Part shown: positions 1 through 15,483 of the stretch, one piece after another
Numbering within the stretch: the first letter of the stretch is position 1
Layout of the letters: each line of letters begins with the position of its first letter
From: Wenzhouxiangella sp.
GTDB taxonomy: Bacteria; Pseudomonadota; Gammaproteobacteria; Xanthomonadales; Wenzhouxiangellaceae
Reading direction: 5' to 3'
Assembly (NCBI GenBank): GCA_007127425.1
Contig: SKZJ01000021.1
Span: forward strand, 1-15,483
DNA: 15,483 bases
Notes under the pieces: model-generated
Seen by the model: only the letters and a program-made list of their open reading frames with translations
Told to the model about the DNA's origin: nothing
Database searches by the model: none
Translations under genes and position numbers: made by a program

Positions 1-1080
1 GATGAACTGCTCGTCGGTGCGGGTGAACTCGAAGAAGTCGTGCATGTCGCCCTCGAAGCCGACCTGCTCCATGACGTCGTGGATCTCACCATGGATGCGT
101 TCGACCTCGGCCAGGCCGATCTCGTGGATCTCGGCCGGACTCAGGTCGGTGGTGGTGGTGTTGGCGACCAGCCATGCGTACCACTCCTCGCCGCCGGGCA
201 GATCGTTCATGCCGGCCGTCTCGCGGCAAGCCGGCAGGTACTCGTCGGCCAGAAAATCGCGCAGGCGCTGGATGGTCGGCACCGCCGTTTCCGCGATCAG
301 GCTGCGGTAGTCGTCCTCGATGCGCTCACGCTCTTCCTCGGTCACCTCATCAGGGAAACCTTCCACTGGACGGAACAGCAGGCTGTCGGCGGGATCCTCG
401 ACCAGGTGCGCGTCGAGCTGGTCGAGTGTCCGTTCGATCAGGATCTGCGGCTGTACGATGTCCTGCTCCATGCCCTCGCGCATATTGGTGATGGCCTGGT
501 CCACCCACACCGTCCACTCTGTGACGCGCTGACGCCATGCATCGTAGTCCTCGGCGTTTCTGAACGGCTGGGCACCATCTCCGGAGCCGAGCATGATCAG
601 GGTGTTGACCGGATTGCGGAACTGGTTGATCGGCAGCAGGTGACCGGGATACGCAGCCCCTTCAATGGAGCGCTCACGCTCGCTTTCGAACATGCGATAG
701 CTGAGCAGGTCCTGGCCTTCCAGGCCTTCGCTACCGATTTCACGCAGGCGCGCCAGATAGTCTTGGTGGTGCTCGAGCATGCGGTCGCGGTGCTCTTCGC
801 TGAGCGAGTTGGGCCAGCGATCCGACCAGCGATGGTCGCCCATGAAGGTCGCGCGCAGGGGGCTGAGTTCCAGCGAGGCCTCGAAGTACTCCTCATAGAG
901 TTCGTCGAGTTGCGCGACACGCTCGCTTGCATCGATGCCCTCCTCGGTCGCGCCGGGGGCGGATTCGGAACGGGTCACCTCAGGCTCAGTCGGCTCGCTG
1001 GCCGAATCACGATCGGATTCGCAGGCTGCCAGCAGGAAGGTGGTGAGCATCAGGAAAGGCAGAAATCTCGTCATCGTCAT
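1..1080 (-). CDS. DUF885 family lipoprotein, C-terminus off the left edge
   Basis: Reading the minus strand from an ATG at 1080 gives 360 codons with no stop to base 1, so the gene is truncated by the window. Residues 1-20 are a lipoprotein signal peptide ending in the lipobox FLLAAC (Cys20); Glu at +2 argues for outer-membrane sorting. An acidic Ser/Pro/Glu linker follows (about 21-50). The body is helical, with ELYEEYFEASLELSP, LSPLRATFMGDHRWSD and TTTTDLSPAEIHEIGLAEV, which is the arrangement of DUF885 proteins (usually about 560-620 aa, metallopeptidase-like). The HExxH-type region expected further on is outside the window, so catalysis cannot be judged. A second ATG at 1074 is better spaced from the AGGA at about 1087-1090 and may be the real start. 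The gene is divergent from the CPXCG gene, with a 126-bp shared spacer. Family assignment is by recognition; the substrate is unknown. Confidence 0.85.
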   Translation of the reverse strand, partial: MTMTRFLPFLMLTTFLLAACESDRDSASEPTEPEVTRSESAPGATEEGIDASERVAQLDELYEEYFEASLELSPLRATFMGDHRWSDRWPNSLSEEHRDRMLEHHQDYLARLREIGSEGLEGQDLLSYRMFESERERSIEGAAYPGHLLPINQFRNPVNTLIMLGSGDGAQPFRNAEDYDAWRQRVTEWTVWVDQAITNMREGMEQDIVQPQILIERTLDQLDAHLVEDPADSLLFRPVEGFPDEVTEEERERIEDDYRSLIAETAVPTIQRLRDFLADEYLPACRETAGMNDLPGGEEWYAWLVANTTTTDLSPAEIHEIGLAEVERIHGEIHDVMEQVGFEGDMHDFFEFTRTDEQFI

Positions 1081-1110
1081 ATCATCCTGGGATCAGCAAT
1101 CGGTCAGACT

Positions 1111-1130
1111 AGCATGTTCTGGGTCATGCT
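1111..1130. promoter_or_regulatory. Inverted repeat AGCATG-N8-CATGCT in a divergent spacer
   Basis: Perfect 6-bp arms separated by 8 bp lie in the 126-bp spacer between the divergent DUF885 and CPXCG genes. A further CATGCATG palindrome sits at 1159-1166. The position suits an operator, but no regulator family is recognised and no convincing -35/-10 pair was found here. Confidence 0.25.
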
Positions 1131-1206
1131 CTGAACGGCAGCAGCCTGCCTCTGTAACATGCATGACAGGGATCACACAAAAACCCTCACTACAGGAGTG
1201 TCGACC

Positions 1207-1383
1207 ATGGAACTCTATCCATTTACCTGTCCGTGGTGCAATGAACCAAACGAGTTGCCACTGGATCCGGGTGAGTTCGGTCAACAGGTCGTGATCGACT
1301 GCCACGTCTGCTGCCGGCCGATCGAGATCGAGTTACCCGCCGATTCCGACGGCGAGCCCATGGTGCGCGGCGAAGGTCAGTGA
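1207..1383 (+). CDS. CPXCG motif-containing cysteine-rich small protein
   Basis: A 58-residue protein. The ATG at 1207 is chosen over an upstream in-frame ATG at 1159 because AGGAG at 1195-1199 is well spaced and because the family begins just before the first cysteine pair. CPWC at residues 8-11 and CxxCC at 32-36 (DCHVCCRPI) match the two knuckles of the CPXCG zinc-ribbon family, which is widespread in gammaproteobacteria. Zn binding is expected from the cysteine pairs; the biochemical role is unknown. The protein is full length for the family and has an acidic C-terminal tail. It is monocistronic by appearance, since a separate promoter for the next gene follows directly. Confidence 0.85.
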   Translation: MELYPFTCPWCNEPNELPLDPGEFGQQVVIDCHVCCRPIEIELPADSDGEPMVRGEGQ

Positions 1384-1416
1384 GGGTTCGCCCGCTCCGG
1401 GCCTCGCATCGGCTGA

Positions 1417-1446
1417 TTGACCATGGCGTACCACGATGCCTATACT
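1417..1446 (+). promoter_or_regulatory. Sigma70-type promoter for the glycosyltransferase gene
   Basis: TTGACC (1417-1422) and TATACT (1441-1446) are separated by 18 bp, each one or two bases from consensus. Transcription would begin near 1453. This places the start point inside the longest possible reading frame of the next gene (ATG at 1436), so that ATG would not be on the transcript. Confidence 0.55.
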
Positions 1447-1501
1447 TTCGCAGGCCCCCTTTCCGTCATCGAGTTCCGCTTTGCAAAGCCATCCCGTTTC
1501 C

Positions 1502-2344
1502 GTGGTGAGAGACTTCATCGAAGAGCAGTTCTTTCGTTGCGCCGCCAGCGGCCTGGTGCCCCGCCGGCTGTTCAAGCCTCGTCTGCCGGATCGAGACCGA
1601 CAGGCTTCCAGCCAGCCGCTCAAGCTGGAGATCGTCAGTCATTGCTGGAAATACGGCCGCTTGCTGAACTACCAGCTCAGCTCCCTGATCCTGCATCCAC
1701 CACAAGATTGCCGGGTCACGATGACGGTATTTCACTGCCCTGATGATCGCGACACCGGTCGCATCCTGGACTACTTTGCCGGGGAGACGGTACCCAACGT
1801 CACCTGGAACTGGCAAGCGCTGGACAAGGAGAGGCTATTTCGTCGCTCGATCGGCCGCAACCAGGCCGCATTGGCCACGCAGGCCGACTGGATCTGGTTC
1901 ACCGATTGTGACGTGACCTTTCAAGCCGGCGCCCTGGACAGTCTCGCCGCCGAATTGTCCGAATGCGATGCCATGCTGACCTTCCCGCAGATTCACCAGG
2001 TCAGTGAAATGCTGCATCCCGACGACCCGATCATCACCGAGGCCGAACAGGCGCCGGCGGTGCTTGACCTGGACCTGTCACGCTTCGAACCGGAGCGGCG
2101 GGAAAAGGCCGTCGGCGGCCTGCAGATCGTGCGCGGCGACGTTGCCCGGGCGATTGGCTATTGCGCCAACATCGGCGTGTACCAGCGCCCGGCAAAGGGT
2201 TTCGGTAACACCTGGGAGGACCGCACGTTTCGTTGGCTGCTGGGGACTCACGGTGAACCACTGAACACTTCCAGTTTCTACAGGATCCGGCATGCCCCGA
2301 AAGGCAGAAAGGGCAGTGATTTCAGGATTCAGGCGCAGGATTGA
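1502..2344 (+). CDS. Glycosyltransferase, family 2-like (GT-A fold)
   Basis: The frame is open from an ATG at 1436 (302 aa), but a good promoter overlaps that ATG, so GTG 1502 or GTG 1505 (280 or 279 aa) is preferred. Neither start has a strong Shine-Dalgarno sequence. Numbered from 1436, LEIVSHCWKYGRLLNYQLSSL (65-85) is a GT-A N-terminal strand-helix, ALATQADWIWFTDCDVTF (145-162) contains the DxD-type motif D157-C-D159 that would bind the metal and nucleotide sugar, and GGLQIVRGDVARAIGYC followed by WEDRTFRWLL resembles the acceptor side of GT2 enzymes. No membrane segment is visible, so it is probably cytosolic or peripheral. Donor and acceptor are unknown, and no polysaccharide genes lie nearby. 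Its TGA stop (2342-2344) directly abuts the stop of convergent metF. Confidence 0.75.
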   Translation: MVRDFIEEQFFRCAASGLVPRRLFKPRLPDRDRQASSQPLKLEIVSHCWKYGRLLNYQLSSLILHPPQDCRVTMTVFHCPDDRDTGRILDYFAGETVPNVTWNWQALDKERLFRRSIGRNQAALATQADWIWFTDCDVTFQAGALDSLAAELSECDAMLTFPQIHQVSEMLHPDDPIITEAEQAPAVLDLDLSRFEPERREKAVGGLQIVRGDVARAIGYCANIGVYQRPAKGFGNTWEDRTFRWLLGTHGEPLNTSSFYRIRHAPKGRKGSDFRIQAQD

Positions 2345-3217
2345 TCAGGAACCGGCCGCAGCACCTTTCGGCTGACCCAGCCCCAGATTCCGGCACAGCG
2401 ACAGGGTCGCTCGGGCGCGGTTGAGGGTGTAGAAATGAAGGCCCGGCGCACCGCCCTCGAGCAACCGCCGACACAAATCGGTGACCACTTCCTCGCCGAA
2501 AGCCGCGATCGACTCCCGGTCGCCGGCTTCATCCCAGGCCTTGATGCGTTTGCCGATCCACAGCGGAATCTCGGCCCCGCACATCTGGGAAAAGCGTGCC
2601 AGCCCGGTGTAGTTGGTAATCGGCATGATGCCCGGCACGATGGGGATATCCACGCCCAGTGACCGTACCTCTTCGACAAAACGGAAATAGGCGCCGGCAC
2701 TGAAGAAATACTGCGTGATCGCGCCGTCAGCACCAGCCTCGACCTTGGCACGGAAGTGCTGCAGGTCGTCGTCCGGGGTGCGCGATTCCGGGTGGTGTTC
2801 GGGGTAGCAGGCCACCTCGAGGGTGAAGGTATCGCCGTACCGCTCGCGAATGAAGCGCACCAGGTCGACCGCATAGGGGAAAACGCCCGCACCGGTGCCC
2901 GAAGGCCGATCCCCCCGCAGCACGACAAGGCGCTTGATGCCATTGGCACGATAATCGTCGAGCAACTCGACGATGTCGGCATCGCTCTCGGCCATGCAGG
3001 AGATATGCGGCGCGGCCTCGATGCCGGTCGCCTGCCGAATTCCGAACACCGTCTCGCGCGTGCGGTCGCGCGTCGACCCCCCGGCGCCGAAGGTCACCGA
3101 CATGTAAGCCGGTCGAAGTTCAGCGAGCCGGTCCCGGGTCCGCTCGAACACCGCCTGCTGCTCCGCGCTGCGGGGCGGAAAAAACTCGAAGCTGAGTTGG
3201 GGGGTGGAATTTGGCAT
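2345..3217 (-). CDS. metF: Methylenetetrahydrofolate reductase MetF
   Basis: A 290-residue protein (E. coli MetF is 296). It reduces 5,10-methylene-THF to 5-methyl-THF with an FAD cofactor, supplying the methyl group for methionine synthase. The N-terminal FEFFPPRS carries the family's catalytic Glu strand. VTFGAGGSTRDRT, VVLRGDRP, QYFFSAGAYFRFVEEV and PIVPGIMPITNY follow in the expected order of the TIM barrel. It is the last gene of the metK-ahcY-metF cluster; 216 bp separate it from ahcY and hold a long hairpin element. There is no clear Shine-Dalgarno before the ATG, which may make translation depend on the leader structure. Its stop overlaps the palindrome TGATCA shared with the convergent glycosyltransferase stop. 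Confidence 0.97.
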   Translation of the reverse strand: MPNSTPQLSFEFFPPRSAEQQAVFERTRDRLAELRPAYMSVTFGAGGSTRDRTRETVFGIRQATGIEAAPHISCMAESDADIVELLDDYRANGIKRLVVLRGDRPSGTGAGVFPYAVDLVRFIRERYGDTFTLEVACYPEHHPESRTPDDDLQHFRAKVEAGADGAITQYFFSAGAYFRFVEEVRSLGVDIPIVPGIMPITNYTGLARFSQMCGAEIPLWIGKRIKAWDEAGDRESIAAFGEEVVTDLCRRLLEGGAPGLHFYTLNRARATLSLCRNLGLGQPKGAAAGS

Positions 3218-3278
3218 CGCGGTTTCGGTGTGTCGGCGGCGTTGAGTCAGTTCAGGTCGACTTCGGCACTCGGTGAAT

Positions 3279-3428
3279 CGTAAAACGGGAAACGGAAAAT
3301 GGGGGCTGCCAGTGGTGTCTTCTTGTCAGCGCAGGGGCCAACGGCAAGACTCTGCCATTGGCTGTTGCCGTTGAAGACCAAAAACAACGTCAGCCCCCGT
3401 TTCACGTTTTACCTTTCCACCTTTCACG
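3279..3428. repeat. Heptamer-arm hairpin element A (ahcY-metF spacer)
   Basis: An imperfect palindrome of about 150 bp. The left arm 3279-3308 (GTAAAAC, GGGAAAC, GGAAAAT, then GGGGGCTG) is matched by the reverse complement of 3391-3428 (GTAAAAC, GTGAAAC, then GGGGGCTG), one heptamer shorter in the G-proximal part. Nested inside are GGTGTCTTC/GAAGACC and a 9-bp stem CAACGGCAA/TTGCCGTTG around 3339-3373, with CCATTGGC in the centre. It lies in the transcribed spacer between ahcY and metF, so the mRNA would fold into a long branched hairpin. No U-tract follows it, so a simple terminator is unlikely; mRNA processing or stability control is possible. Confidence 0.75.
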
Positions 3429-3433
3429 TTCCA

Positions 3434-4897
3434 TCAATACCGATAATGCTCCGGCTTGTAAGGCCCTTCCACCGGCACACCGATATAGTCGGCCTGGTCA
3501 GTCCTGAGCTCGGTCAGGCGCGCTCCAACGCGATCGAGATGCAGGCGGGCGACCTTTTCATCCAGATGCTTGGGCAGCACGTAGACCTCGTTCTCGTAGC
3601 GCTCACCGAACTTCCACAACTCGATCTGCGCCAGGGTCTGGTTGGTGAACGAATTGGACATCACGAAACTCGGGTGGCCGGTGGCACAGCCCAGGTTCAC
3701 CAGGCGGCCACGCGCGAGCAGGATGATCTTCTTGCCGTCGGGGAAGGTGATGTGGTCGACCTGCGGCTTGATCTCGTCCCACTCGTAGGACTCCAGGCTG
3801 GCGACATCGATCTCGTTGTCGAAATGGCCAATGTTGCAGACGATGGCCTCGTCCTTCATGCGCGCCATGTGGTCATGGTTGATGACGCTGTAGTTGCCGG
3901 TGGCGGTCACGAAAATGTCGGCCGCCTCGACCACACCAGGATCTTCGAGATTGACCACCTTGTAGCCTTCCATGGCGGCCTGCAAGGCACAGATCGGGTC
4001 GACCTCGGTCACCCAGACATTCGCCGACAGCGCTCTCAATGACTGGGACGAGCCCTTGCCGACATCGCCGTAGCCGCAGACGATGGCAGTCTTGCCGGCG
4101 ACCATCACGTCGGTGGCGCGCTTGATGGCGTCGACCAGCGATTCCCGGCAGCCGTAGAGATTGTCGAACTTCGACTTGGTCACCGAGTCGTTGACGTTGA
4201 TGGCCGGAAACTTGAGGGTGCCTTCCTTCTGCATGCGGTAGAGACGATTGACACCGGTCGTGGTTTCCTCGGTCACGCCCTGAACATTCGCCAGCGCCTC
4301 CGAGTACCAGCCCGGGTTGGCCTTCAGACGTTTCTTGATCGAGGCAAACAGGGCCTTTTCTTCCTCACTGCCCGGGTTGTCGAGCACGCTGGGGTCATCC
4401 TCGGCCTGTGCACCCAGATTGAGCAGCATCGTGGCATCACCGCCATCGTCGAGAATCATGTTGGCGGTGCCCCCGTCGGGCCACTGGAAGATTCGGTGAG
4501 TGAACTCCCAGTACTCGTCGAGAGTCTCGCCCTTGAAGGCGAATACCGGCACGCCGCGCTCGGCCATGGCGGCGGCGGCATGGTCCTGTGTCGAGTAGAT
4601 ATTGCACGATGCCCAGCGCACGTCGGCACCCAGTTCGATCAGGGTTTCGATCAGGACTGCGGTCTGGATGGTCATGTGCAGCGAGCCGGCAATGCGGGCA
4701 CCAGCCAGCGGCTTGTCCTGGGAATACTCTGCACGGGTCTGCACCAGGCCCGGCATTTCGGTCTCGGCTATGCGAATTTCCTTGCGGCCGAAATCGGCCT
4801 GGGAGAGATCGGCAACTAGATAGTCGTTTTCGGTCGGTGCGATCTGTTCGTCGAACAGTACGCCCTTTCCGGAATTTTCAAGGTTGGCGTTCATCAT
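3434..4897 (-). CDS. ahcY: Adenosylhomocysteinase AhcY
   Basis: A 487-residue protein that hydrolyses S-adenosylhomocysteine to adenosine and homocysteine with bound [18 protein letters not shown] (72-86), [10 protein letters not shown] (101-110) and [11 protein letters not shown] (150-160) form the substrate domain. [12 protein letters not shown] supplies the catalytic Lys/Asp. [10 protein letters not shown] (275-284) is the Rossmann NAD loop, and the protein ends in the typical KPEHYRY. It carries the insert of about 40 residues (about 161-200) seen in plant and many proteobacterial enzymes. Two starts are possible, ATG 4897 or 4894; AGGAG at 4902-4906 fits 4894 slightly better. It is second in the cluster, 122 bp after metK, with a hairpin plus T-tract directly before its ribosome binding site. 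Confidence 0.97.
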
Positions 4898-4910
4898 TGA
4901 ACTCCTGATT

Positions 4911-5017
4911 AAAATAAAAAAACGTTTGTGAGTGTTAGGTGTGAAGTGTTAAGTGTTAAGGGTGGGCAATCGACAACCGGTGCCCTTCACACTTCACACT
5001 TCAAACTTCAAACTCTT
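4911..5017 (-). terminator. Heptamer hairpin element B with T-tract: attenuator or partial terminator
   Basis: On the minus strand, the metK stop is followed by heptamers (GTTTGAA twice, GTGTGAA twice, then GGGCA; 5017-4981), a short loop, and CCC plus heptamers of the opposite sense (CTTAACA, CTTAACA, CTTCACA; 4969-4927). It ends in TTTTTTT (4922-4916) and ATTTT. The arms pair over more than 20 bp, with a G-A mismatch recurring at one heptamer position. AGGAG of ahcY follows only 9 bp after the 7-T run. Hairpin plus U-run is the form of an intrinsic terminator, so it may uncouple ahcY from metK. Confidence 0.6.
4927..5017. repeat. Inverted heptameric tandem repeats (element B)
   Basis: On the plus strand, 4929-4969 reads as AGTGTTA-type heptamers (AGTGTTA, GGTGTGA, AGTGTTA, AGTGTTA, then AGGGTGGGCA). 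The segment 4979-5017 is the reverse complement of AGTTTGA twice and AGTGTGA twice plus AGGGCA. The two arms carry slightly different unit sequences, so they are not a fresh inversion of each other. Confidence 0.75.
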
Positions 5018-5019
5018 CA

Positions 5020-6237
5020 TCAAAGCCCTGCCGCCTCCCGCAAGGCATCGGCCTTGTCGGTCTTCTCCCAGCTGAATGTCGTGAAGTAGTCGGTCATTTC
5101 CTTGCCCCCGCGAACCACCTTCGTGGAGACTTCCTCCGGGTGGCGGCCGAAATGGCCGTACGTAGCCGTCATGCGGTACATGGGATGCAGCAGATCAAGG
5201 GCCTTGAGAATGCCATAGGGCCTGAGATCAAAGTGTTCACGAATCAGTTGCTCGATCTTCTCCTCCGGAATGTGATTGGTACCGAAGGTGGTCACCGAGA
5301 TCGAGGTCGGCTCGGCCACGCCGATGGCATAACTGACCTGCAATTCGCATTTGTCGGCCAGGCCCGCGGCGACCACGTTCTTGGCCACGTAGCGCGCGGC
5401 GTAGGTGGCCGAGCGGTCGACCTTGGATGGATCCTTGCCGGAGAAGGCACCGCCGCCGTGACGGGCCATGCCGCCGTAGGTATCGACGATGATCTTGCGA
5501 CCGGTCAGGCCGGCATCGCCAACCGGTCCGCCAATGACGAACTTGCCGGTCGGGTTGATGTGGTAGTGGGTGTCTTTGTGCAGCCATTCGGTCGGCAGCA
5601 CCGGCTCGATGATGTGCTTGCGCACACCGGCTCGAATTTCCTCCAGATCGATGCCGTCGTCATGTTGCGTTGACAGCACCACCGCATCGATCGCGGTCGG
5701 CTTGCCATCGACATAACGCAGGGTGACCTGGCTCTTGGCATCCGGCCGCAGCCAGGGCAGCGGGTTATCGGCTCGCTTGCGAAGGCGGGCCTGCTGCTCG
5801 ACCAGACGATGGGAAAAATGGATCGGCGCCGGCATCAGTTCCGGGGTTTCGTTGGCCGCATAACCGAACATCAGCCCCTGGTCGCCGGCGCCCTGGTCCT
5901 CGGGGATATCGCGATCCACGCCCATGGCAATATCGGGCGACTGCTTGCCGATCATGTTGATCACCGAGCAGGTATGGCCGTCGAACCCGACGGACGACGA
6001 GTCGTATCCGACTTCCACCACGACCTTCCTGATCAGGGATTCCAGATCCACCCAGGCGGTCGTCGAAATCTCTCCGCCGACGATCACTGCGCCGGTCTTG
6101 ATGAAGGTTTCGCAGGCGACCCGGGCATGAGGATCCTGCGCCAGGATGGCATCGAGCACGGCATCGGAAATCTGGTCGGCCAGCTTGTCCGGGTGGCCCT
6201 CGGAAACGGATTCGGAAGTAAACAGATAGGAACTCAT
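5020..6237 (-). CDS. metK: S-adenosylmethionine synthetase MetK
   Basis: A 405-residue protein (E. coli MetK is 384). It makes SAM from methionine and ATP and is a cytosolic tetramer in known homologs. [13 protein letters not shown] (6-18) is the invariant N-terminus and fixes the start. [12 protein letters not shown] (116-127) is the signature 1 ATP/methionine loop. [17 protein letters not shown] (261-277) is the phosphate-binding signature 2. [26 protein letters not shown] closes the C-terminal domain. It is first in the metK-ahcY-metF cluster. No good Shine-Dalgarno precedes the ATG (leader ends AAACCTCGCC). No SAM or SAH riboswitch consensus was recognised in the leader. Confidence 0.98.
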
Positions 6238-6370
6238 GGCGAGGTTTATCTTTTAATCGGGATAGAAAGATATGTAGTTTAGCGCAGATGGCGTGAGGAT
6301 GCGAGTCGGGGTCTTCCACGGTTGTTTTGTCAGGGCGGATGCGGGTGCGTCCGAGCGGCGCGGGCTTCGG
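6238..6370 (-). promoter_or_regulatory. metK leader/promoter region with a small hairpin
   Basis: The 133 bp between metK and the repeat element must hold the metK promoter and leader. A 6-bp stem ATCTTT/AAAGAT (6248-6253 with 6266-6271, 12-nt loop) lies 10 bases before the start codon. AT-rich stretches near 6270-6285 could be a -10 (TAAACT on the minus strand), but no matching -35 was found, so no promoter is called. Confidence 0.3.
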
Positions 6371-6372
6371 TA

Positions 6373-6492
6373 AAACGGGGAAACGGGAAACGGGGAAACG
6401 GGAAACGGGGAAACGGGGAAACGGGGAAACGGGGAAACGGGGAAACGGGGAGACGGGAGACGGGAGACGGGAGACGGAAGACGGAAAACGAG
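6373..6492. repeat. Tandem 7/8-mer array, G-quadruplex-prone
   Basis: Sixteen contiguous units on the plus strand: ten AAACGGGG/AAACGGG units (eight of 8 bp, two of 7 bp; 6373-6450), then six heptamers of AGACGGG/AGACGGA/AAACGAG type (6451-6492). From 6403 there are six successive GGGG runs separated by AAAC, a classic intramolecular G-quadruplex pattern. The G-rich strand is the template strand with respect to metK transcription. It forms the outer left arm of the larger palindrome described next. Confidence 0.85.
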
Positions 6493-6790
6493 AGCATTGG
6501 CCCGCTGTGCAGGTATTTCGGCGGACAATCGGAAATAGGAAAACGTGAAACGAGGGGGGAACCGGCAGTTCTCGGTCAGGCATTGGTGGCCAATGGCGTG
6601 GTTCTTGGCAACCGGGCCCGAATTGGGGGCCTATCGAGGGCAATACGCCCACCATTGGCCTCCGTGCGCAAAGACAGCCGGGCACATCCCCCATTTTACG
6701 TTTTACGTTTCTCTATTTCCGATTGTCCGCTCGAAGCACCTGCACAGCGGGCCGGTGCTCCCGTCTCCCGTCTCCCGTCTCCCGTCTTCC
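6373..6790. repeat. Heptamer-arm hairpin element C, about 420-bp imperfect palindrome
   Basis: The left part 6451-6553 is repeated in reverse complement at 6691-6790. The right part has CCCGTCT four times (about 6759-6787). Its reverse complement contains GGCCCGCTGTGCAGG and GCGGACAATCGGAAATAG, matching the left at 6499-6513 and 6521-6538 almost base for base. The inner region 6554-6690 has a further inverted pair, GGCCAATGGCGTGG (6589-6602) with CGCCCACCATTGGCC (6646-6660). The design (heptamers, G-run, CCATTGGC core, C-run, heptamers) matches element A. It fills the divergent spacer between metK and cls. There is no transposase and no gene inside; the open frames crossing it are by-products of the repeats. 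Confidence 0.8.
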
Positions 6791-6811
6791 GGACAATCCA
6801 ACTTGCAACCG

Positions 6812-8290
6812 ATGGCGGAGCAGCCGACACTGCGGACTGGTCATCTGGTTGTGGCGAATTTGGATCTGGGCTTCCAAACGCTGCTGATTCTGTTGTTTCA
6901 TGCCGTGCTGGCGCCGGCGACAGCCCTGCATGCGCTGCTGTACAAGCGCGACCCGCGTGCGGCATTCGGGTGGATCGCGGTGTGCGTGCTGGCACCGGTT
7001 GCCGGCCCGGTGATCTACCTGTTTTTCGGCCTCAACCGCGCGCGCGGCAAGGCCCAACGCCTTGGGCTGGGCGATCTGCAATTCGGCTATGAACGCGGAC
7101 GCACCATTGAACGCATTCACCCGCTGCCCCCGACGATCCGGGATGAGTATCAGTCCCTGGCCCGCATCGGGCAGGCCCTGAGTCGCCATGCGCTGGTCGA
7201 CGACAACCGGGTGGAACCGCTGATCAATGGCGAGGCGGCCTATCCGGCCATGCTCGACGCCATCGAGCGTGCCGAAAGCCATATCCTGCTGACCACCTAT
7301 ATTCTCGACAATGACCGTACCGGCCTGGCTTTTCGCGAGGCACTGGCTGCGGCGGCAGCACGCGACGTCGACGTGCGGGTGATGATCGACGGCATCGGCG
7401 AGTGGTACTCCATCCCGCGCGCCAGCCGCGCACTGAAACGCCACGGCATCCGCGTCGCCCGCTTCCTGCCGCCACGGCTGCTGCCACCCTCGCTGTCGAT
7501 CAACATGCGCAACCACCACAAAATTCTCGTGGTCGACGACCAGGTCGGCTTCACTGGCGGCATGAACATCAGCGACCGACATCTGGTCGACGATCGCGAC
7601 AACCGCAACTGCACCACTGACGTGCACTTCCGGCTCAAGGGGCCGGTGGTACTCCAACTCCGTCAGGAATTCCTGAGAATCTGGGAATTCTCGACCGGAA
7701 CCACCGATGAGCCGTCCCGAGGCCGACCCGACGCTAGCGGAGAACTGGCCTGCCGCACCGTCACCGACGGCCCCGACGAGGATCTTGACCGCCTCAACAT
7801 GCTACTGAGCGCCGCCATCGCCGAGGCCAGGCAGACCGTTCGCATCATGACTCCTTATTTCCTGCCCTCGCGTGAACTGATCGGCGCCATCCAGGCGGCC
7901 GCCGTGCGCGGGGTGAAGGTGCAGATCGTGCTGCCGGAGGTCAACAACCTGCCCTACATCCACTGGGCCACGCGCAACATGCTCTGGGAAGTCCTGATGC
8001 GCGGCGTGAAGGTCCACTACCAGCCCGCCCCCTTCAATCACGCCAAGTTGTTCGTGATCGACGGCTACTACAGCCTGATCGGTTCGACTAACTGGGATCC
8101 CAGGAGCCTGAGGCTCAACTTCGAGCTGCAGGTCGAAGTCTACGGAGACGAATTTGCTGCCGGCCTGATCGATTACATCGACCGCGCCACCCATTCCGGA
8201 CGCGAAGTCACCCTGGAAGAAGTCGACGGCCGTAACCCGCTGGTGCGGTTTCGCGATGCGTTGTGCTGGCTGTTTTCGCCGTATTTGTGA
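6812..8290 (+). CDS. cls: Cardiolipin synthase (phospholipase D superfamily)
   Basis: A 492-residue inner-membrane enzyme that forms cardiolipin from phosphatidylglycerol or related donors. Two N-terminal membrane helices (about residues 12-38 and 44-68) precede two phospholipase D catalytic motifs, H235-x-K237-x4-D242 (HHKILVVDD) and H410-x-K412-x4-D417 (HAKLFVID), each followed by the GG/GS-x-N segment (TGGMNIS, IGSTNWD). Length is typical for bacterial Cls (about 480-500). ATG 6812 is chosen because the frame upstream of it runs through the repeat element and encodes nothing family-like; there is no clear Shine-Dalgarno, so the start is moderately certain. The gene stands alone, divergent from metK and convergent with the ATPase. 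Which Cls paralogue (A, B or C type) was not resolved; the two helices favour the ClsA type. Confidence 0.92.
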   Translation: MAEQPTLRTGHLVVANLDLGFQTLLILLFHAVLAPATALHALLYKRDPRAAFGWIAVCVLAPVAGPVIYLFFGLNRARGKAQRLGLGDLQFGYERGRTIERIHPLPPTIRDEYQSLARIGQALSRHALVDDNRVEPLINGEAAYPAMLDAIERAESHILLTTYILDNDRTGLAFREALAAAAARDVDVRVMIDGIGEWYSIPRASRALKRHGIRVARFLPPRLLPPSLSINMRNHHKILVVDDQVGFTGGMNISDRHLVDDRDNRNCTTDVHFRLKGPVVLQLRQEFLRIWEFSTGTTDEPSRGRPDASGELACRTVTDGPDEDLDRLNMLLSAAIAEARQTVRIMTPYFLPSRELIGAIQAAAVRGVKVQIVLPEVNNLPYIHWATRNMLWEVLMRGVKVHYQPAPFNHAKLFVIDGYYSLIGSTNWDPRSLRLNFELQVEVYGDEFAAGLIDYIDRATHSGREVTLEEVDGRNPLVRFRDALCWLFSPYL

Positions 8291-8292
8291 GG

Positions 8293-8376
8293 GTGAAAGG
8301 TGAAAGGGAAAAGGTGAAAGGGAAGAGGGAAGAGGGAAGAGGGAAGAGTGAAGAGGGAAGAGGGAAGAGGGAAGAG
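8293..8376. repeat. Heptamer array D, 12 units, polypurine (cls-ATPase spacer)
   Basis: Exactly 84 bp = 12 x 7. GTGAAAG, GTGAAAG, GGAAAAG, GTGAAAG, then GGAAGAG four times, TGAAGAG, and GGAAGAG three times. From 8315 to 8379 the plus strand is purine except one T at 8349. The array starts 3 bp after the cls stop and ends 12 bp before the convergent ATPase stop. Unlike the other elements it has no reverse-complement partner. No terminator hairpin was found in this convergent spacer. Confidence 0.9.
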
Positions 8377-8388
8377 GAACAAACCAGC

Positions 8389-9903
<1,515 letters not shown>

Positions 9904-9987
9904 GCTTGCGAGTCGCTCATCGGTCTTGAAGCGGGCATTCTGCGGAAAATACGTGGTGATGTCACCTCGCCCGGCGCACCGCGCTGT

Positions 9988-10001
9988 GGCAGAATCCTGC
10001 C
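9988..10001. promoter_or_regulatory. 14-bp inverted repeat touching a start codon, with possible extended -10
   Basis: GGCAG-AATC-CTGCC (9988-10001) is a perfect 5-bp inverted repeat ending at the base before the NERD ATG (10002). TGGCAGAAT (9987-9995) resembles an extended -10, which would put transcription start at about the ATG itself, giving a leaderless mRNA. No -35 is seen. It is either an operator or a promoter fragment; evidence is sequence shape only. Confidence 0.25.
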
Positions 10002-10787
10002 ATGGCCGACCTATCGCACGTCACCGAGTACACCGCAATCACACGCCATCGCGACGACATGCAACTGGCTGCCGGTCGCCGGCGCCGGCGCATGATCCTT
10101 GCCGTCGTTCTCGTCACCACACTCAGCGGCATCGGCTACTGGATCACCCCGCCACTGGGCATCATGCTGGTCGGTATCGGGGCCATGGTGTTGTTTTTCT
10201 CCGCCATCATCGGCGGCTCCAGCGTGCCGCACCACGTCATGGAAGGCGTCGAGGGGGAAGCCCGGGTACTAGATACGCTCAGCCGCCTGCCCGACGATCA
10301 CGCCCTCTTCAACCAGGTCCATATCCCCGACCCCGAGCTGACCAACGGCCGAAGGGAGCTGGATTTCATCATTGTCGGGCCTGCCGCCGTCACTATCGTC
10401 GAGGCCAAGAACACACCCGGGCTGATCCACGTCGACCCGGACAGCCGGCAGTGGCGGGTCGTCAAGCGCGCCGGTTGCGGCAGCAGCCCGGGCTGGAACG
10501 CGATCGACAACCCGCTCATCCAGGTCCGCGCCCAGACCCGGGCACTGGAGCGCTGGCTGCTGACCCACGGCCTGGCCCTTCGGCCGCAGGGCATGGTGTG
10601 CTTCGCCCGGCCCGATGCCGCGGTGGCCGAACCGGAAAAAGCCGAGCTACCGGTCGTGACCACCGATGAGTTGATTGAACATGTCGCGGCCTCGCAGAAC
10701 GGACGTCCCATGCCGGAGACGGATCGACAGGCGCTGATCAGACTGCTGCAGCGAACTGCCCAGGGACAACTCGCCAGGGCGGCCTGA
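10002..10787 (+). CDS. Membrane-anchored NERD (nuclease-related) domain protein
   Basis: A 261-residue protein. A basic cluster (GRRRRR, 25-30) precedes two hydrophobic helices (about 31-49 and 51-71), so the rest should face the cytosol. The NERD domain spans about 80-190. EGEARVLDTL holds the N-terminal Glu (E85), RRELDFIIVG the Asp (D121), and VEAKN the E134-x-K136 pair, which is the PD-(D/E)xK nuclease arrangement. NPLIQVRAQTRALERWL is the conserved helix after the core. All expected active-site residues are present, so nuclease activity is possible but not shown for most NERD proteins. No Shine-Dalgarno precedes the ATG, which fits a leaderless start. Divergent from the Ycf46-like ATPase. 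Confidence 0.85.
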   Translation: MADLSHVTEYTAITRHRDDMQLAAGRRRRRMILAVVLVTTLSGIGYWITPPLGIMLVGIGAMVLFFSAIIGGSSVPHHVMEGVEGEARVLDTLSRLPDDHALFNQVHIPDPELTNGRRELDFIIVGPAAVTIVEAKNTPGLIHVDPDSRQWRVVKRAGCGSSPGWNAIDNPLIQVRAQTRALERWLLTHGLALRPQGMVCFARPDAAVAEPEKAELPVVTTDELIEHVAASQNGRPMPETDRQALIRLLQRTAQGQLARAA

Positions 10788-10872
10788 CCTCGTCACCGCA
10801 CTCGCACGATTTCCCGAGACATCCGTGACCCTAAAACGGTTGGACCGGTCGGAAGACCGCCACGACCTCACA

Positions 10873-10881
10873 TGCTATTCT
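10873..10881 (+). promoter_or_regulatory. Extended -10 promoter for the sensor/GGDEF gene
   Basis: TGCTATTCT fits the TGn-TATAAT extended -10 form, 32 bp before the ATG at 10913, predicting a start near 10888 and a 25-nt leader. A stem CGGTC-GGAA-GACCG (10846-10859) lies directly upstream, in the -35 region, and could be an operator or the end of the NERD transcript; it has no T-tract. Confidence 0.4.
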
Positions 10882-10912
10882 GGCGCGACAGGGGTTACGG
10901 AAGCGCAGGCCA

Positions 10913-13828
10913 ATGCTGCAGCGCATCAGTCTTTTCGTTCATTTCGGTTTTGCCATTTTTCTGCTGGTTACTTGCACCGGTAATGCCTGGGCGCTGGCCT
11001 CAGAGCGCGGCCAACCTTTCATCTCCTGGTATCCGCCCCAGGCCTACGGCGCCGGCACGCAGAACTGGGCCATCACCCAGGGTGACAACGGCTTCATGTA
11101 CTTCGGAAACGAAGGCGTCGTCCTGGTTTTCGATGGTGCCCGATGGGAGCAGGTCCGCATCGCGCCGGGACGGGCGATCCGCTCCCTGTCACGCGCCGCT
11201 GACGGCCGCATCCTTGTAGGAAGCCAGGGTGATTTCGGCTACCTCCGTACGGTTACTGATGGCCGCGTGGAGTACATTTCCCTGGCCGATCGACTCCCCG
11301 ACGACGCGCCGGCCTTCACCGATGTTTGGCAGGCATTTTCATATGATGGAAGCTGGTACTTTTCCAGTCGGCAAGCGCTGTTTCACGTGAGGAACGGGGA
11401 CATCCACATTCATCGCCATGATCAAGCCCGGGCCGGCGCCTCCTTCCTGCTCAACGGCGAGTTGTACACCGACCTGATCACCGACGGCCTGTCACGCTTT
11501 GACGGCGACGGCTACGAGGCATTGCCGGGCGCCGAGCCGGGCATGGAGGTCTTTGCCATGACCCCCCTGCCCGACGGCCGCATTCTTGTCGGCAGTCGTC
11601 GGGACGGACTGTTCGCCTACGATCCCGAAGCTGCAGATCTGAGCACCATCGCGCCGGAGACCAGCGCCTTCCTGGCCGAGCAGCACCTCAACCACGGCGT
11701 CAACCTGTCGGACGGTCGCGCCGCTCTCGCCACGCAGCGTGGCGGCGTGGTGCTGGTCGATGTGGAAGCCGACCGCTTCGAGGTCATCGACCACCGCGCC
11801 GGATTGCCCGATGTGCGCGTCCGTCACCTGTTCGTGGATGCCGAGGACGGCTTGTGGCTTGCCATGGATTCCGGCATCGCGCGCATCGAGACCGGCGGCG
11901 TGCTGTCGCGCTTCGATCGTCACAGTGGGCTGAACGGACCGGCACTGAGCCTGATCCGGCATGAGGATACTTTGTACGCCGGCACCACGCTGGGCCTGTT
12001 CCGACTCCTCGACGGCCGGTTCCACGCCGTCGACGGCATCGACTCCGAGGTCTGGGACCTGGTCACCTGGCAAGATGAGGCAGCAGGCACTCGCCTGCTG
12101 GCAGCAACCACATTCGGCATTTATGCCGTCGGCGAAGATGGGGTCGAGCGGATTTCCGAACCCTACCTGAGCACCAACCTGGAAACATTGCCCGGGCAAC
12201 CCGGGCGATTGTGGGTCGGCACCTATGACAGGGGGCTGGGCTATCTTGACCGACTCGATGACGACTGGGCAGCGACCGAATTCACCTTATTCAATGGACC
12301 GGTACGCCGCCTCCAGGCCGGCAACAATGCCACACTCTGGATGGAAACCTGGCTGGACGGCCTGGCACGGCTGGATGCCAGGCAGGAACAGGTGTTGTGG
12401 AGACACCCGGGGGACGATTCCGATGAGGATGCGGGCAGATGGACCGTCCTGGCCAGCGACAGTCATCAACTGGTCGCCTCACACAATGGTATCTGGCAAT
12501 GGCACGAGGATGACAGCCTGCATCCGCGCAACGACCTGCACCGCACGCTGATTGCGCCTCACAGCGGCGCGACGGTGCTGGCCGAAAGCGAGCCCGGCGT
12601 GTTGTGGGCGATTACCACCGACGGCATCACGCAGCGTGTTCGAGTCACCGATATCGGCCGCCCGGAACAGGCTCATCCTCTCGATGCCATGCTCGGTCGA
12701 CTGCCGGATGTCGAGTTCCATACGGTGCTGCCCGATGAGCGGGGGGCGGTCTGGATCAGTGGCGCGGACGCCCTCTACCGCGTCGAGACCGGTCCGGGTT
12801 CGACCACGCCCGCCGAAATGAGCGTGGCCATCCGCTCGATTACCGCCGGGGGAGAGCATCTGGGACTCGCCCGGGGCGACAAGCCGGTGACCTTGAGTAA
12901 TGAGGATTTCCCGCTCACTTTCGACTTTGCCGCGACCGCTTTCGACTGGCCGGAGGGCACGCGCTACCGCTACCGAATTCCACCCCTGCAGCCGGAATGG
13001 TCGGACTGGCAGGCCGAGGCCCGACACGAGTTCAGTCATCTGCCGCCGGACCGTTACCGTTTTGAAGTCCAGGCACGCGATGCCCTGGGCCGACTTGCCA
13101 CCGCGCGCGGCTTCGCGTTTGACATACCGCCGCCGTGGTACCAGAGCACCTGGGTCATGGCGATCGCGGCACTGGTGCTGGCCGGCATGATCCCGGGGTT
13201 ATTGTGGCTGGGGGGCTACCGGCAGGCACGACAGAACGCCCGCCTCGAGACGCTCGTGGCCCGGCAAACGAGCGAACTGCAGCAGCAAAAGCACCTGCTC
13301 AGGAAGGAACGCAACCGCTTCGATCATTTCAGTCGACACGATAAACTGACCGGGCTGCCCAATAGCCGCCACGGCAAGGAACAGCTCGAGTGCGCCTGGC
13401 GCGCCGCGCTCGACGGCGGCCAGTTCGTATCGCTGGCTCTGGTCGATGTCGATCATTTCCAGCAAATCAACGATCGCCACGGGCACGATGCCGGGGATCG
13501 GGTCCTAGTCGAAATGGCCGAACTGTTGCGCTCAAGCTCGCGCCCCGACGATGTGGTCGTGCGTTGGGGCGGAAAGGAATTCCTGCTGCTTTTCCCCGGG
13601 ACGGGACTACCCGACGCGGTCGCCATCTGTCACCGTATCTGCGACCTCGTGCATGCGCACGAATGGGGAGACCCGGGAGACGAGAGCGGCGTTTCCATCA
13701 GCGTCGGCGTGACCGCCACGCGCGGGCACAAGAACGTGGCCGAACTGTTGTCACGGGCTGATGAACTGCTCGACCAGGCCAAGCGAAACGGTCGTGACCG
13801 TGTCGAAGTCGAACGTGAGAATTGGTAA
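10913..13828 (+). CDS. Periplasmic two-component-regulator-propeller sensor with degenerate GGDEF domain
   Basis: A 971-residue protein. It has a signal peptide (about 1-28, ending AWALA), then beta-propeller repeats typical of reg_prop sensors over about 35-640 (GDNGFMYFGNEG, DGRILVGSQGDFGYL, DAEDGLWLAMDSGIARI). A Y_Y_Y-type domain follows (about 661-741, RYRYRIPPLQPEWSDW, LPPDRYRFEVQARDALG), then one membrane helix (about 743-766), a short coiled coil (770-800) and a GGDEF domain (808-968). LTGLPNSRHG is present, the first metal Asp is D845 (DVDHFQ) and an RxxD inhibitory site is at 877-880 (RPDD). The signature is GGKEF (886-890) instead of GG[DE]EF, and the usual Lys after DxDHF is Gln850. 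Diguanylate cyclase activity is therefore doubtful; it may instead bind c-di-GMP. It is followed after 13 bp by mrpE and may be co-transcribed with it. Confidence 0.92.
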   Translation: MLQRISLFVHFGFAIFLLVTCTGNAWALASERGQPFISWYPPQAYGAGTQNWAITQGDNGFMYFGNEGVVLVFDGARWEQVRIAPGRAIRSLSRAADGRILVGSQGDFGYLRTVTDGRVEYISLADRLPDDAPAFTDVWQAFSYDGSWYFSSRQALFHVRNGDIHIHRHDQARAGASFLLNGELYTDLITDGLSRFDGDGYEALPGAEPGMEVFAMTPLPDGRILVGSRRDGLFAYDPEAADLSTIAPETSAFLAEQHLNHGVNLSDGRAALATQRGGVVLVDVEADRFEVIDHRAGLPDVRVRHLFVDAEDGLWLAMDSGIARIETGGVLSRFDRHSGLNGPALSLIRHEDTLYAGTTLGLFRLLDGRFHAVDGIDSEVWDLVTWQDEAAGTRLLAATTFGIYAVGEDGVERISEPYLSTNLETLPGQPGRLWVGTYDRGLGYLDRLDDDWAATEFTLFNGPVRRLQAGNNATLWMETWLDGLARLDARQEQVLWRHPGDDSDEDAGRWTVLASDSHQLVASHNGIWQWHEDDSLHPRNDLHRTLIAPHSGATVLAESEPGVLWAITTDGITQRVRVTDIGRPEQAHPLDAMLGRLPDVEFHTVLPDERGAVWISGADALYRVETGPGSTTPAEMSVAIRSITAGGEHLGLARGDKPVTLSNEDFPLTFDFAATAFDWPEGTRYRYRIPPLQPEWSDWQAEARHEFSHLPPDRYRFEVQARDALGRLATARGFAFDIPPPWYQSTWVMAIAALVLAGMIPGLLWLGGYRQARQNARLETLVARQTSELQQQKHLLRKERNRFDHFSRHDKLTGLPNSRHGKEQLECAWRAALDGGQFVSLALVDVDHFQQINDRHGHDAGDRVLVEMAELLRSSSRPDDVVVRWGGKEFLLLFPGTGLPDAVAICHRICDLVHAHEWGDPGDESGVSISVGVTATRGHKNVAELLSRADELLDQAKRNGRDRVEVERENW

Positions 13829-13841
13829 GATTCGCCGTCCT

Positions 13842-14327
13842 ATGAGATACATCATTGCGCTCACATTAATCCTGGCCACGCTCTGGCTGGCCGTTTCGGG
13901 GGTCTACAAACCCTTGATTTTACTGCTTGGGGCCGGCTCGGTCGCCCTGGTCGTATGGATCGCCCTGCGCATGGAGGTCGTCGGAGAGGAGCACAACCCG
14001 ATTCTCTATTCCTGGCGACTTCCGCTGTACTGGGCCTGGCTGGTCTGGCAGATCGTCCGTGCCAACCTCAACGTCGCGCGCCTGATTCTCTCGCCCCGAG
14101 GCATTCGCCCCCGCGTCATCACGGTTCCGACCCCTCATCGTTCCACCGTGGCCCGGGTCACCTACGCCAACTCGGCAACGCTGACACCGGGCACCGTCTC
14201 GCTGCTTCTGACGAAGAAGGAACTGACCGTTCACGCGCTCGATACCCGATCGGCAGAGGAACTCGAGGAAGGTGCCCTGGCGCGACGTATCGCCTGGCTT
14301 GAAGGTTCCGACACGGAGCAACCCTGA
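13842..14327 (+). CDS. mrpE: Na+/H+ antiporter subunit MrpE/MnhE
   Basis: A 161-residue membrane protein. ATG 13842 (MRYIIALTLILATLWL) is chosen over an in-frame ATG at 13761, which would overlap the GGDEF gene and adds a non-hydrophobic tail. Two N-terminal helices (about 2-20 and 22-44) are followed by YWAWLVWQIVRANLNVARLIL, the conserved MrpE segment, then a soluble domain containing YANSATLTPGTVSLLL (TPGT), the family hallmark. Length matches MnhE (about 159). It is part of a multi-subunit monovalent cation/proton antiporter in the cytoplasmic membrane. The 13-bp gap from the sensor gene and the 1-bp gap to mrpF indicate one operon. Confidence 0.9.
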   Translation: MRYIIALTLILATLWLAVSGVYKPLILLLGAGSVALVVWIALRMEVVGEEHNPILYSWRLPLYWAWLVWQIVRANLNVARLILSPRGIRPRVITVPTPHRSTVARVTYANSATLTPGTVSLLLTKKELTVHALDTRSAEELEEGALARRIAWLEGSDTEQP

Positions 14328-14328
14328 C

Positions 14329-14622
14329 ATGACCCTGGTACTGGTTCTGACCACGATGGCCATCTTCGCCACCATGGCCCTGGCGCTGGTGCGCGCGCTC
14401 AAGGGACCGACGGTGTACGACCGCATCAATGCTGTCAACGTCTTCGGCACCAAGACCGTGCTGATCATCGCGCTGATCACCTACATCACCGGCCATGCCG
14501 ACCTGATCGACGTGGCGCTGGTCTATGCCCTGATCAATTTCATCGCCATCGTGGCCGTTCTGAAACTGGCCAAGACCCGCGACCTGGCCAGCTCCAGTGA
14601 TGGAGTGGTCGACGATGTTTGA
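14329..14622 (+). CDS. mrpF: Na+/H+ antiporter subunit MrpF/MnhF
   Basis: A 97-residue protein with three helices (about 3-20, 33-52, 58-79). GPTVYDRINAVNVFGTK (26-42) is the MrpF signature (family GPTxxDRxxAxxxxG), and the acidic pair in HADLIDVALVYALINF marks the third helix. ATG 14329 lies one base after the mrpE stop, implying translational coupling, and gives the standard family length. Like MrpG it is a small membrane subunit of the Mrp complex, with counterparts in the MbhB position of membrane-bound hydrogenases. Confidence 0.9.
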   Translation: MTLVLVLTTMAIFATMALALVRALKGPTVYDRINAVNVFGTKTVLIIALITYITGHADLIDVALVYALINFIAIVAVLKLAKTRDLASSSDGVVDDV

Positions 14623-14965
14623 CATGCTCATCGACATCCTGTCCTGGGCCTGCCTTCTCCTCGGCGGGCTGGTCGGCATCATCGGCGGTCTCGGACTGGT
14701 TCGCCTGCCGGACTTCTTCAGCCGACTGCATGCTGCCGGCGTGGCTGAAACGCTATGCCCACTTCTGGTGGTCCTCGGTCTCGTGCTGCAATCGGGTATC
14801 AGCCTGCTGACGCTGAAGCTGGTGCTGATCCTCCTGTTCCTGTTGTTCACGGCCCCGACCGCGACCCATGCGGTGGCAAGGGCAGCGCTGGTCGACGGGG
14901 TCGAACCCGAAGTGACCGAAGACGACTCCGAATCCACATCGGGAGAGCCGTCATCGAATACCTGA
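14615..14965 (+). CDS. mrpG: Na+/H+ antiporter subunit MrpG/MnhG
   Basis: A 116-residue protein with three helices (about 5-30, 43-62, 66-86). IGGLGLVRLPDFFSRLHAAG (20-39) and AETLCPLLVVLG match the MrpG signature (GxxRxPDxxxRLHAxxxxxTLG). The ATG at 14615 follows GGAG at 14600-14603 and overlaps the mrpF stop by 8 bp, so the two are translationally coupled. An upstream in-frame ATG at 14597 is less likely. The acidic C-terminal tail (EPEVTEDDSESTSGEPSS) is unusual for the family and could suit a saline cytoplasm; that is an inference. Confidence 0.9.
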   Translation: MFDMLIDILSWACLLLGGLVGIIGGLGLVRLPDFFSRLHAAGVAETLCPLLVVLGLVLQSGISLLTLKLVLILLFLLFTAPTATHAVARAALVDGVEPEVTEDDSESTSGEPSSNT

Positions 14966-15483
14966 TCGACGTCACCCTGCTGATTTTCCTGGTGATCGTG
15001 GCCATTGCCATCGTGCGCGCAAAAGACCTGTTCGCCGCAGCCATGCTGTTCGCCATTTATTCACTGCTGTCGGCGGCGCTTTTTGCCGTGCTCGATGCCG
15101 GCGACGTGGCGCTGACCGAGGCCGCGGTCGGTGCCGGCATCAGCACCATCCTCGTACTCGCCCTGCTGGCCCTGGCCCGCCGCTACGAACACCCCAAGCA
15201 AGGCCACAACCTGCTGGCTCTGGCGGTCGTTGTCGTCACCGGCGCGGCACTGATCTACGCCACCCTGGACATGCCGAAGTTCGGCGACGCCGGCAACCCG
15301 GCCCAGGTGCACGTGGGTCCCTATTACGTCGAACAGAGCTACCCCGACATGGGCGTGCCCAACATGGTTGCCGCCGTACTGGCCAGTTATCGTTCCATTG
15401 ATACGCTCGGCGAGGCCTTCGTCATCCTGACCGCCGGCCTGGCCGTCTATGCGCTGCTGTCAACTCCACTGCGTCGCAGAAAA
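14953..15483 (+). CDS. DUF4040 / MrpA C-terminal (MbhD-MbhE-like) antiporter subunit, right end at window edge
   Basis: Open to the last base, 177 codons from 14953. Helices lie at about 3-24, 31-50, 57-76, 86-105 and 153-172. VRAKDLFAAAMLFAIYSL and DVALTEAAVGAGISTILVL are the DUF4040/MbhD core found at the C-terminus of full-length MrpA. SYRSIDTLGEAFVILTAG is the adjoining MbhE-like motif. The conserved N-terminus (IEYLIDVTLL) has no ATG, GTG or TTG: the codons there are GTC 14950 and ATC 14953, and GGGAGA at 14941-14946 is ideally spaced for ATC. GTG 14992 would cut the first helix. The start is therefore uncertain. The C-terminus (PLRRRK) is probably near completion. mrpB would be expected next, outside the window. 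Confidence 0.8.
   Translation, partial: MEYLIDVTLLIFLVIVAIAIVRAKDLFAAAMLFAIYSLLSAALFAVLDAGDVALTEAAVGAGISTILVLALLALARRYEHPKQGHNLLALAVVVVTGAALIYATLDMPKFGDAGNPAQVHVGPYYVEQSYPDMGVPNMVAAVLASYRSIDTLGEAFVILTAGLAVYALLSTPLRRRK

Follow-up and report, generated by a model that had tools for sequence, protein, structure and literature searches.

Tandem repeats with heptameric units are known from cyanobacteria as short tandemly repeated sequences (STRR), and the extragenic palindromes called REP and REPIN are linked to Y1 transposases. Here we analyzed heptamer arrays in the gene spacers of a Wenzhouxiangella sp. contig (SKZJ01000021.1, positions 1 to 15,483; this whole stretch of 15,483 nucleotides is called the window), which resemble STRR, considered here by their description, in being heptameric tandem repeats. 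The nearest systems on record are the GGGAATC repeats of Xanthomonas and the GGGGA(C/T)T repeats of Nostoc, which, in the account of Rehm et al. (2015; PMC4692102), are like ours intergenic heptamers with convergent pairs, a polarity, a place at gene ends, and a conserved position. That account counts convergent pairs of GGGAATC sites in two Xanthomonas genomes (70 in one and 75 in the other), has the G strand directed away from the edges of open reading frames (ORFs), near stop codons and less often between divergent ORFs, and places 83% of GGGAATC repeats at the same position in the sister species, with no function found; it also mentions Calothrix heptamers and tells that heptameric repeats had been noted in 2007 to be in excess in bacterial genomes, a finding left without explanation. 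Abundant intergenic heptamers were also described in a gammaproteobacterial genome, the TAACTGA direct repeats of Beggiatoaceae (MacGregor 2015, PMC4679880), which have a single fixed unit and lie mainly right before start codons, almost never inverted; TAACTGA is not among the 32 dominant period-7 units found here. The heptamer families named in the part of "Satellites in the prokaryote world" (PMC6749651) covered here are all others. Our literature search found no paper on such repeats in Wenzhouxiangella, and the words repeat, tandem, and intergenic have no mention in the available part of the AB-CW3 genome paper (PMC7691419).

The paired-arm form, of which the first-pass annotation of the window knew no description, is thus already published for the Xanthomonas GGGAATC repeats (PMC4692102). 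What is new here is that many units occur in one genome, whereas the Xanthomonas and Nostoc repeats have one unit type per organism (PMC4692102); that the unit at one place often changes between species, unlike GGGAATC; and that most arrays are without G-tracts, 93 of 156 having no GGG at all, so that they cannot be three-tetrad G-quadruplexes. Two features that define the Xanthomonas repeats do not hold here, namely, the unit GGGAATC (GGGANTN) and, in most arrays, the four G3 tracts. The GGGAATC trimer pattern GGGAATCGGGAATCGGG was present in 16 of the 151 genomes searched in the order and in none of the 16 that belong to this genus. Shared features are a mostly noncoding heptamer unit, convergent pairs with the G strand directed away, and, at selected loci, the same place in different species.

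Our analysis revealed that the spacers carry members of a family of short tandem arrays with 7-mer and sometimes 8-mer units. This family occurs in many genomes of the genus, often in the form of two convergent arms with a loop or core between them. The 7-bp periodicity noticed in the window is present across its own genome, where 41 stretches (230 kb, window included) gave 27 period-7 and 6 period-8 arrays and 0 to 2 at every other period up to 13. The corresponding numbers were 44 and 17 in 492 kb of genome G003 (at most 7 at each other period) and 30 and 4 in 400 kb of G039, which is a single contig. Array density was 10 to 14 per 100 kb in four sampled genomes of the genus, mostly at periods 7 and 8; 8 of the 20 contigs from G014, as well as the window and L250, had been taken for carrying arrays or the orthologous locus. 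Two single-contig genomes of the same genus, G031 and G038, had one array each in 200 kb (0.5 per 100 kb), and other families of the order had 3 period-7 arrays in 200 kb (ten stretches, six families). Shuffling left no period-7 array in the genus sets, including the window and 20 contigs of its genome, and 1 in the other-family set. Of the 170 arrays of four genomes, 156 (128 of period 7 and 28 of period 8) remained after removal of 14 that lay at least half within a predicted gene. An assembly artifact was considered, as several G003 contigs start or stop in arrays, yet single-contig G039 has arrays too. The ends of draft contigs L145, L149, L161, L165, and L169 of G003 often lie inside heptamer arrays; short-read assemblies therefore probably undercount these arrays and break at them.

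The arrays have a marked polarity. All 35 pairs of neighboring arrays on opposite strands of one spacer were convergent with the G-rich arm first (7 in G000, 13 in G003, 7 in G014, and 8 in G039), and 10 more neighbors lay on the same strand. Within 300 nt, 66 of 127 arrays had a reverse-complement partner on their inner side and 2 of 127 had one on the outer side, and long inverted repeats occurred in 45/83 array spacers versus 26/330 array-free spacers. Arms matched their own partner better than they matched other spacers, with mean matches of 13.0 versus 8.3, 17.6 versus 12.8, 10.5 versus 9.9, and 16.2 versus 9.2. Relative to the nearest gene edge, the G strand was directed away in 122 of 156 arrays, and among the 87 that lay no more than 30 nt from an edge, the G strand was directed away in 55 located after a stop and 23 located before a start and had the opposite direction in 9.

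Orthologous spacers often keep an array with another unit, as observed for ahcY-metF, atpG-atpD, and purH-purD. At ahcY-metF, the detector found an array in 12 of 24 genomes with full loci (the window's own element is below the detector; the truncated locus L209 and the partial hits L226 to L230 were left out), and units across genomes include GGTGAAA, GGTTTCA, GGGTTCA, GGGAAGA, and AAATAGT. At atpG-atpD, 6 of 11 genomes have arrays of four unit kinds that keep the usual order and come with a C-rich counterpart, and the remaining 5 have a short native spacer. The detector likewise found arrays at atpA-atpG in 6 of 10 genomes (G035, with 8 bases remaining, was left out) and at purH-purD in 7 of 11, with several unit kinds. 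The overall array rate is 89/589 spacers, and the ahcY-metF, atp, and pur loci compared with it were picked for arrays in G039 or the window (the atp and pur spacers for G039 arrays, L002 to L020 for resemblance to the window). Among 105 orthologous spacer pairs, mostly of the window locus, 15 had arrays in both members, 25 in one, and 65 in none; outside the window locus, 3 had arrays in both and 3 in one, too few to be read alone. The earlier statement that period and layout are kept while the sequence changes was thus largely right, with an exception between metK and the phospholipase D (PLD)-family gene here called cls, where the array block is absent in all nine relatives compared. This metK-cls spacer (window 6300-6790) is far longer than in the nine array-lacking relatives, and its metK promoter side is conserved.

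The first-pass annotation had ascribed a unit sequence of its own to each spacer and had favored selection on a structure or a copying mechanism rather than descent from one sequence. On descent, our data argue otherwise. The 128 period-7 arrays of four genomes have 32 distinct dominant 7-mers, 27 of which fall in one single-substitution network, compared with a mean of 4.4 for shuffled letters (0 of 500 shuffles reached 27). Because 27/32 units share one mutational network, the sequences favor a single drifting family, i.e., descent with drift over independent invention, and the independent local expansion of random 7-mers was rejected on the same comparison. Moreover, among 37 arrays of six spacers, likeness was higher than in unrelated pairs (0.567) both for one locus in different genomes (0.628, p = 0.001) and for different loci of one genome (0.624, p = 0.006), so that both locus-level descent and a genome-wide component are present. 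Genomes also differ markedly in unit use, as exact dimer counts over 30 genomes show: GGTTTCA dimers numbered 365 in G003 and 8 in G000; GGTGAAA dimers, 256 in G035, 127 in G039, 64 in G000, and 0 in G003; GTGTKAA dimers, 213 in G039, 107 in G011, and 0 in 25 genomes; and GGGARAC dimers, 90 in G034, 41 in G014, 13 in G000, and 0 in 23 genomes.

Within the window (Table 1), gene coordinates give four spacers between 3218 and 8388, all with repeats, where four of five had been reported. Tandem Repeats Finder (TRF) and a lag scan found their arrays at periods 7 and 8 and combinations of these. The 7-bp period is not strict, as an 8-mer array lies beside 7-mers in the metK-cls spacer. The array at 3279 is only weakly periodic and below the array detector. 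The order heptamers, G-run, core, C-run, and reverse-complement heptamers, previously ascribed to three spacers, is clear in two elements. That of the ahcY-metF spacer has weak GTAAAAC/GGGAAAC heptamers and the core center GGCCAACGGC...GCCATTGGC; the other is nested in the metK-cls spacer. The metK-ahcY pair has instead another, short loop. Inverted arms were found at 4931-4953/4985-5007, 6461-6520/6732-6791, and 6521-6552/6699-6730. The units of the window are not unrelated, as GGTGAAA, GGGAAAA, and GGGAAGA follow one another inside the single array after cls, for which no partner arm was seen within its spacer. Folding gave z scores of -3.55 (3276-3433, RNA), -3.91 (4922-5016, RNA), and -16.27 (6440-6795, DNA), each fold beating all its shuffles. 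No Rfam match was obtained in the window at gathering score, and a known RNA family was set aside as the identity of these elements.

Table 1. Repeat features and genes of the window
Feature	Coordinates	Strand	Remarks
Palindromic paired-arm element	3276..3431	.	ahcY-metF spacer; model match on both strands
G-rich arm, units GTGTTAA/GTGTGAA	4931..4960	+	metK-ahcY spacer; TRF, lag scan, inverted-arm search
C-rich partner arm, CTTCACA/CTTCAAA	4985..5014	-	metK-ahcY spacer; TRF, lag scan, inverted-arm search
8-mer array GGGGAAAC with some 7-mers	6373..6457	+	metK-cls spacer; TRF, lag scan
G-rich outer arm, units GGGAGAC/GGAAGAC	6448..6490	+	metK-cls spacer
Left arm of middle inverted repeat	6521..6552	+	91% complementary to 6699-6730
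Nested second palindromic element	6534..6725	.	G-run, CATTGGCC center, C-run, TTTTACG heptamers
Right arm of middle inverted repeat	6699..6730	-	
C-rich outer arm, CTCCCGT	6758..6791	-	pairs with 6448-6490
Single G-rich array	8292..8377	+	directly 3' of the PLD-family gene stop; TRF, lag scan
metF (MTHFR)	2345..3217	-	
ahcY (AdoHcyase)	3434..4897	-	3276..3431 element comes after its stop codon
metK (S-AdoMet synthetase)	5020..6237	-	
PLD-family protein (cardiolipin-synthase-like), called cls here	6812..8290	+	
AAA ATPase	8389..9903	-	

We tentatively propose, at somewhat less than even confidence for mechanism and function together, that slippage and template switching maintain the heptamer stems of gene-end hairpins. 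Replication slippage would change the copy number within an arm, and template switching at the hairpin, a process reported to make and keep hairpins (PMC8794818), would copy one arm onto its partner, making the two change together and keep the period; some copying between dispersed arrays would spread a unit through the genome. The function would be that of a stem-loop at the gene end or between cistrons (e.g., metK-ahcY-metF, atpA-atpG-atpD), the stem mattering more than its sequence. The place of the arrays behind stop codons, also inside apparent operons, together with the GC hairpins of some array-free relatives, suggests such a gene-end hairpin. Indeed, array-free L216, L219, L222, and L225 have a stable GC hairpin in the 120 nt behind the ahcY stop (z of -3.4 to -4.6), and L223 has a z of -2.2 behind this stop; array-bearing L201 and L206 show no fold excess in the 120 nt after ahcY, their partner arms lying partly beyond that stretch. 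A strong terminator was judged unlikely, as arrays lie between genes of apparent operons (metK-ahcY-metF, atpA-atpG-atpD, and the oppC-like/oppD-like pair).

Several observations weigh against our proposal. Slippage and template switching both leave the polarity unaccounted for. About half of the arrays lack the reverse-complement partner that the other half has, and G014 is without an inverted-repeat excess (3/15 array spacers versus 10/58). Behind ahcY, L221 and L224 have weak hairpins (z of about -1.4), and L218 and L220 (z of -5.1 and -4.8) have their stable stem further downstream of the stop. In 40 stems of codirectional spacers, G.U and A.C mismatches numbered 61 and 47 (p = 0.105); because this difference is not significant, there is no sign of selection on the sense mRNA, and selection on mRNA through wobble asymmetry was rejected. 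Finally, the test loci were chosen for the presence of arrays in G039 or the window, and the metK-cls block was found in none of nine relatives. As a separate observation, the long stable stem of array-free L218 and L220 lies near the metF start.

The same lack of a sense-strand wobble asymmetry speaks for neutral DNA dynamics, to which we give a substantial minority share of our belief. Here, slippage and template switching alone would generate and maintain the arrays, which would sit at gene ends since coding sequence and promoters exclude them, and no function would be involved. Such dynamics also agree with array spacers being less often divergent (14/89 versus 140/500 others, p = 0.018), with the near absence of arrays from two single-contig genomes of the genus, and with Rehm et al. 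reporting no function (PMC4692102). They predict neither the 35/35 polarity nor the GC hairpins that some array-free relatives have in the same position. It is also possible, if rather doubtful, that hairpins dispersed in a genome swap 7-mer units in register, each species rewriting its position-conserved stems in its own dialect; this would be a concerted evolution, across the genome, of a structure with no fixed sequence, 7-mers and 8-mers forming separate exchange pools. For a copying mechanism that builds 7-mers, as raised in the first-pass annotation, nothing was found in favor of a template machine, the Y1 transposase family being the only one searched.

It appears improbable that the arrays are miniature mobile elements, MITE- or REPIN-like, bounded by heptamers and inserting behind stop codons. 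In favor of such elements stands a subfamily of about 155-bp palindromes with heptamer ends, a G-run, and the center GGCCAATGGC-n8-GCCATTGGCC, which takes in both G-run elements of the window, recurs at many sites in G000 and G008, and looks similar to REP/REPIN, themselves dispersed extragenic palindromes (PMC3116915, PMC3733652). Its center pattern was found in 5 of 30 genomes (24 in G008, 10 in G000, 4 in G009, and 1 each in G035 and G039; control, 0) and not in the 25 others. Eleven further places matched the palindromic element with E below 1e-8, several of them having been fetched for resemblance to the window, and the element lies behind ahcY in both G000 and G008 (L227). Copies of the element, whose center is of the CATTGGCCA type, were seen at window 3276-3431 and 6534-6725 and at L005, L010, L014, L015, L019, L105, L113, L181, L182, L186, L227, L247, and L292. 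Occupied and empty versions of one spacer also exist, which likewise speaks for this reading. However, REP/REPIN are fixed sequence families, whereas the arms here consist of tandem repeats that vary in sequence. Moreover, 38 of 58 cores between arms have no relative among cores, and one mobile core was rejected as a general explanation on this ground; conserved internal sequence is present in one subfamily, and some of the 20 clustered cores are the same place counted twice or orthologues. The Y1 transposase family PF01797 occurs in 9 of 30 genomes and was found in none of G035, G010, G017, G034, the incomplete G000, and G003, a 99% complete genome that has the most GGTTTCA arrays; as it was not found in array-rich G003, RAYT mobilization was rejected. 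No target-site duplication was noticed in the metK-cls and atp spacers, which were inspected by eye only. In G003, cores between GGTTTCA arms (L143, L145, L165, L169, and L172) repeatedly contain GGTGGGCGGCTTCGCCGC or GTCGCCCCGG...CCGGGGC palindromes.

G-quadruplex regulators, as proposed for the GGGAATC and GGGGA(C/T)T repeats, are very unlikely as the common denominator: four GGG tracts occur in 23 of 156 arrays, with window units such as GGGAAGA and GGGAGAC among them, but the 93 arrays without any GGG misfit this explanation, and G011 has AAATAG-type arrays at three spacers where other genomes have GG-rich units. Equally hard to sustain is a reading in which the arrays offer multiple binding sites to a DNA- or RNA-binding protein, the specificity of which would differ between species and drive the unit sets: the genome-specific units and the greater likeness among one genome's arrays at different loci (p = 0.006) would fit, but many units coexist per genome (G000 has 20 dominant units in its 30 arrays).

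The contig that forms the window belongs to a metagenome genome resembling Wenzhouxiangella. Its AhcY protein has 84 to 89% identity to its best nine public matches, five of which are labeled Wenzhouxiangella or Wenzhouxiangellaceae. Gene calls came from our own simple codon model rather than from a standard annotation. The metK, ahcY, and metF genes lie in the same direction, with the PLD-family gene and then the AAA ATPase gene beyond. Further along, positions 10913-13828 encode a 971-residue protein with Reg_prop repeats and a GGDEF domain.

Our study shows that the G-quadruplex reading misfits most arrays of this genus and that polarity, pairing, and gene-end place recur across different units. 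About thirty related genomes differ in the units they carry at shared spacers, which makes it possible to test slippage, template switching, and structural selection directly against each other.

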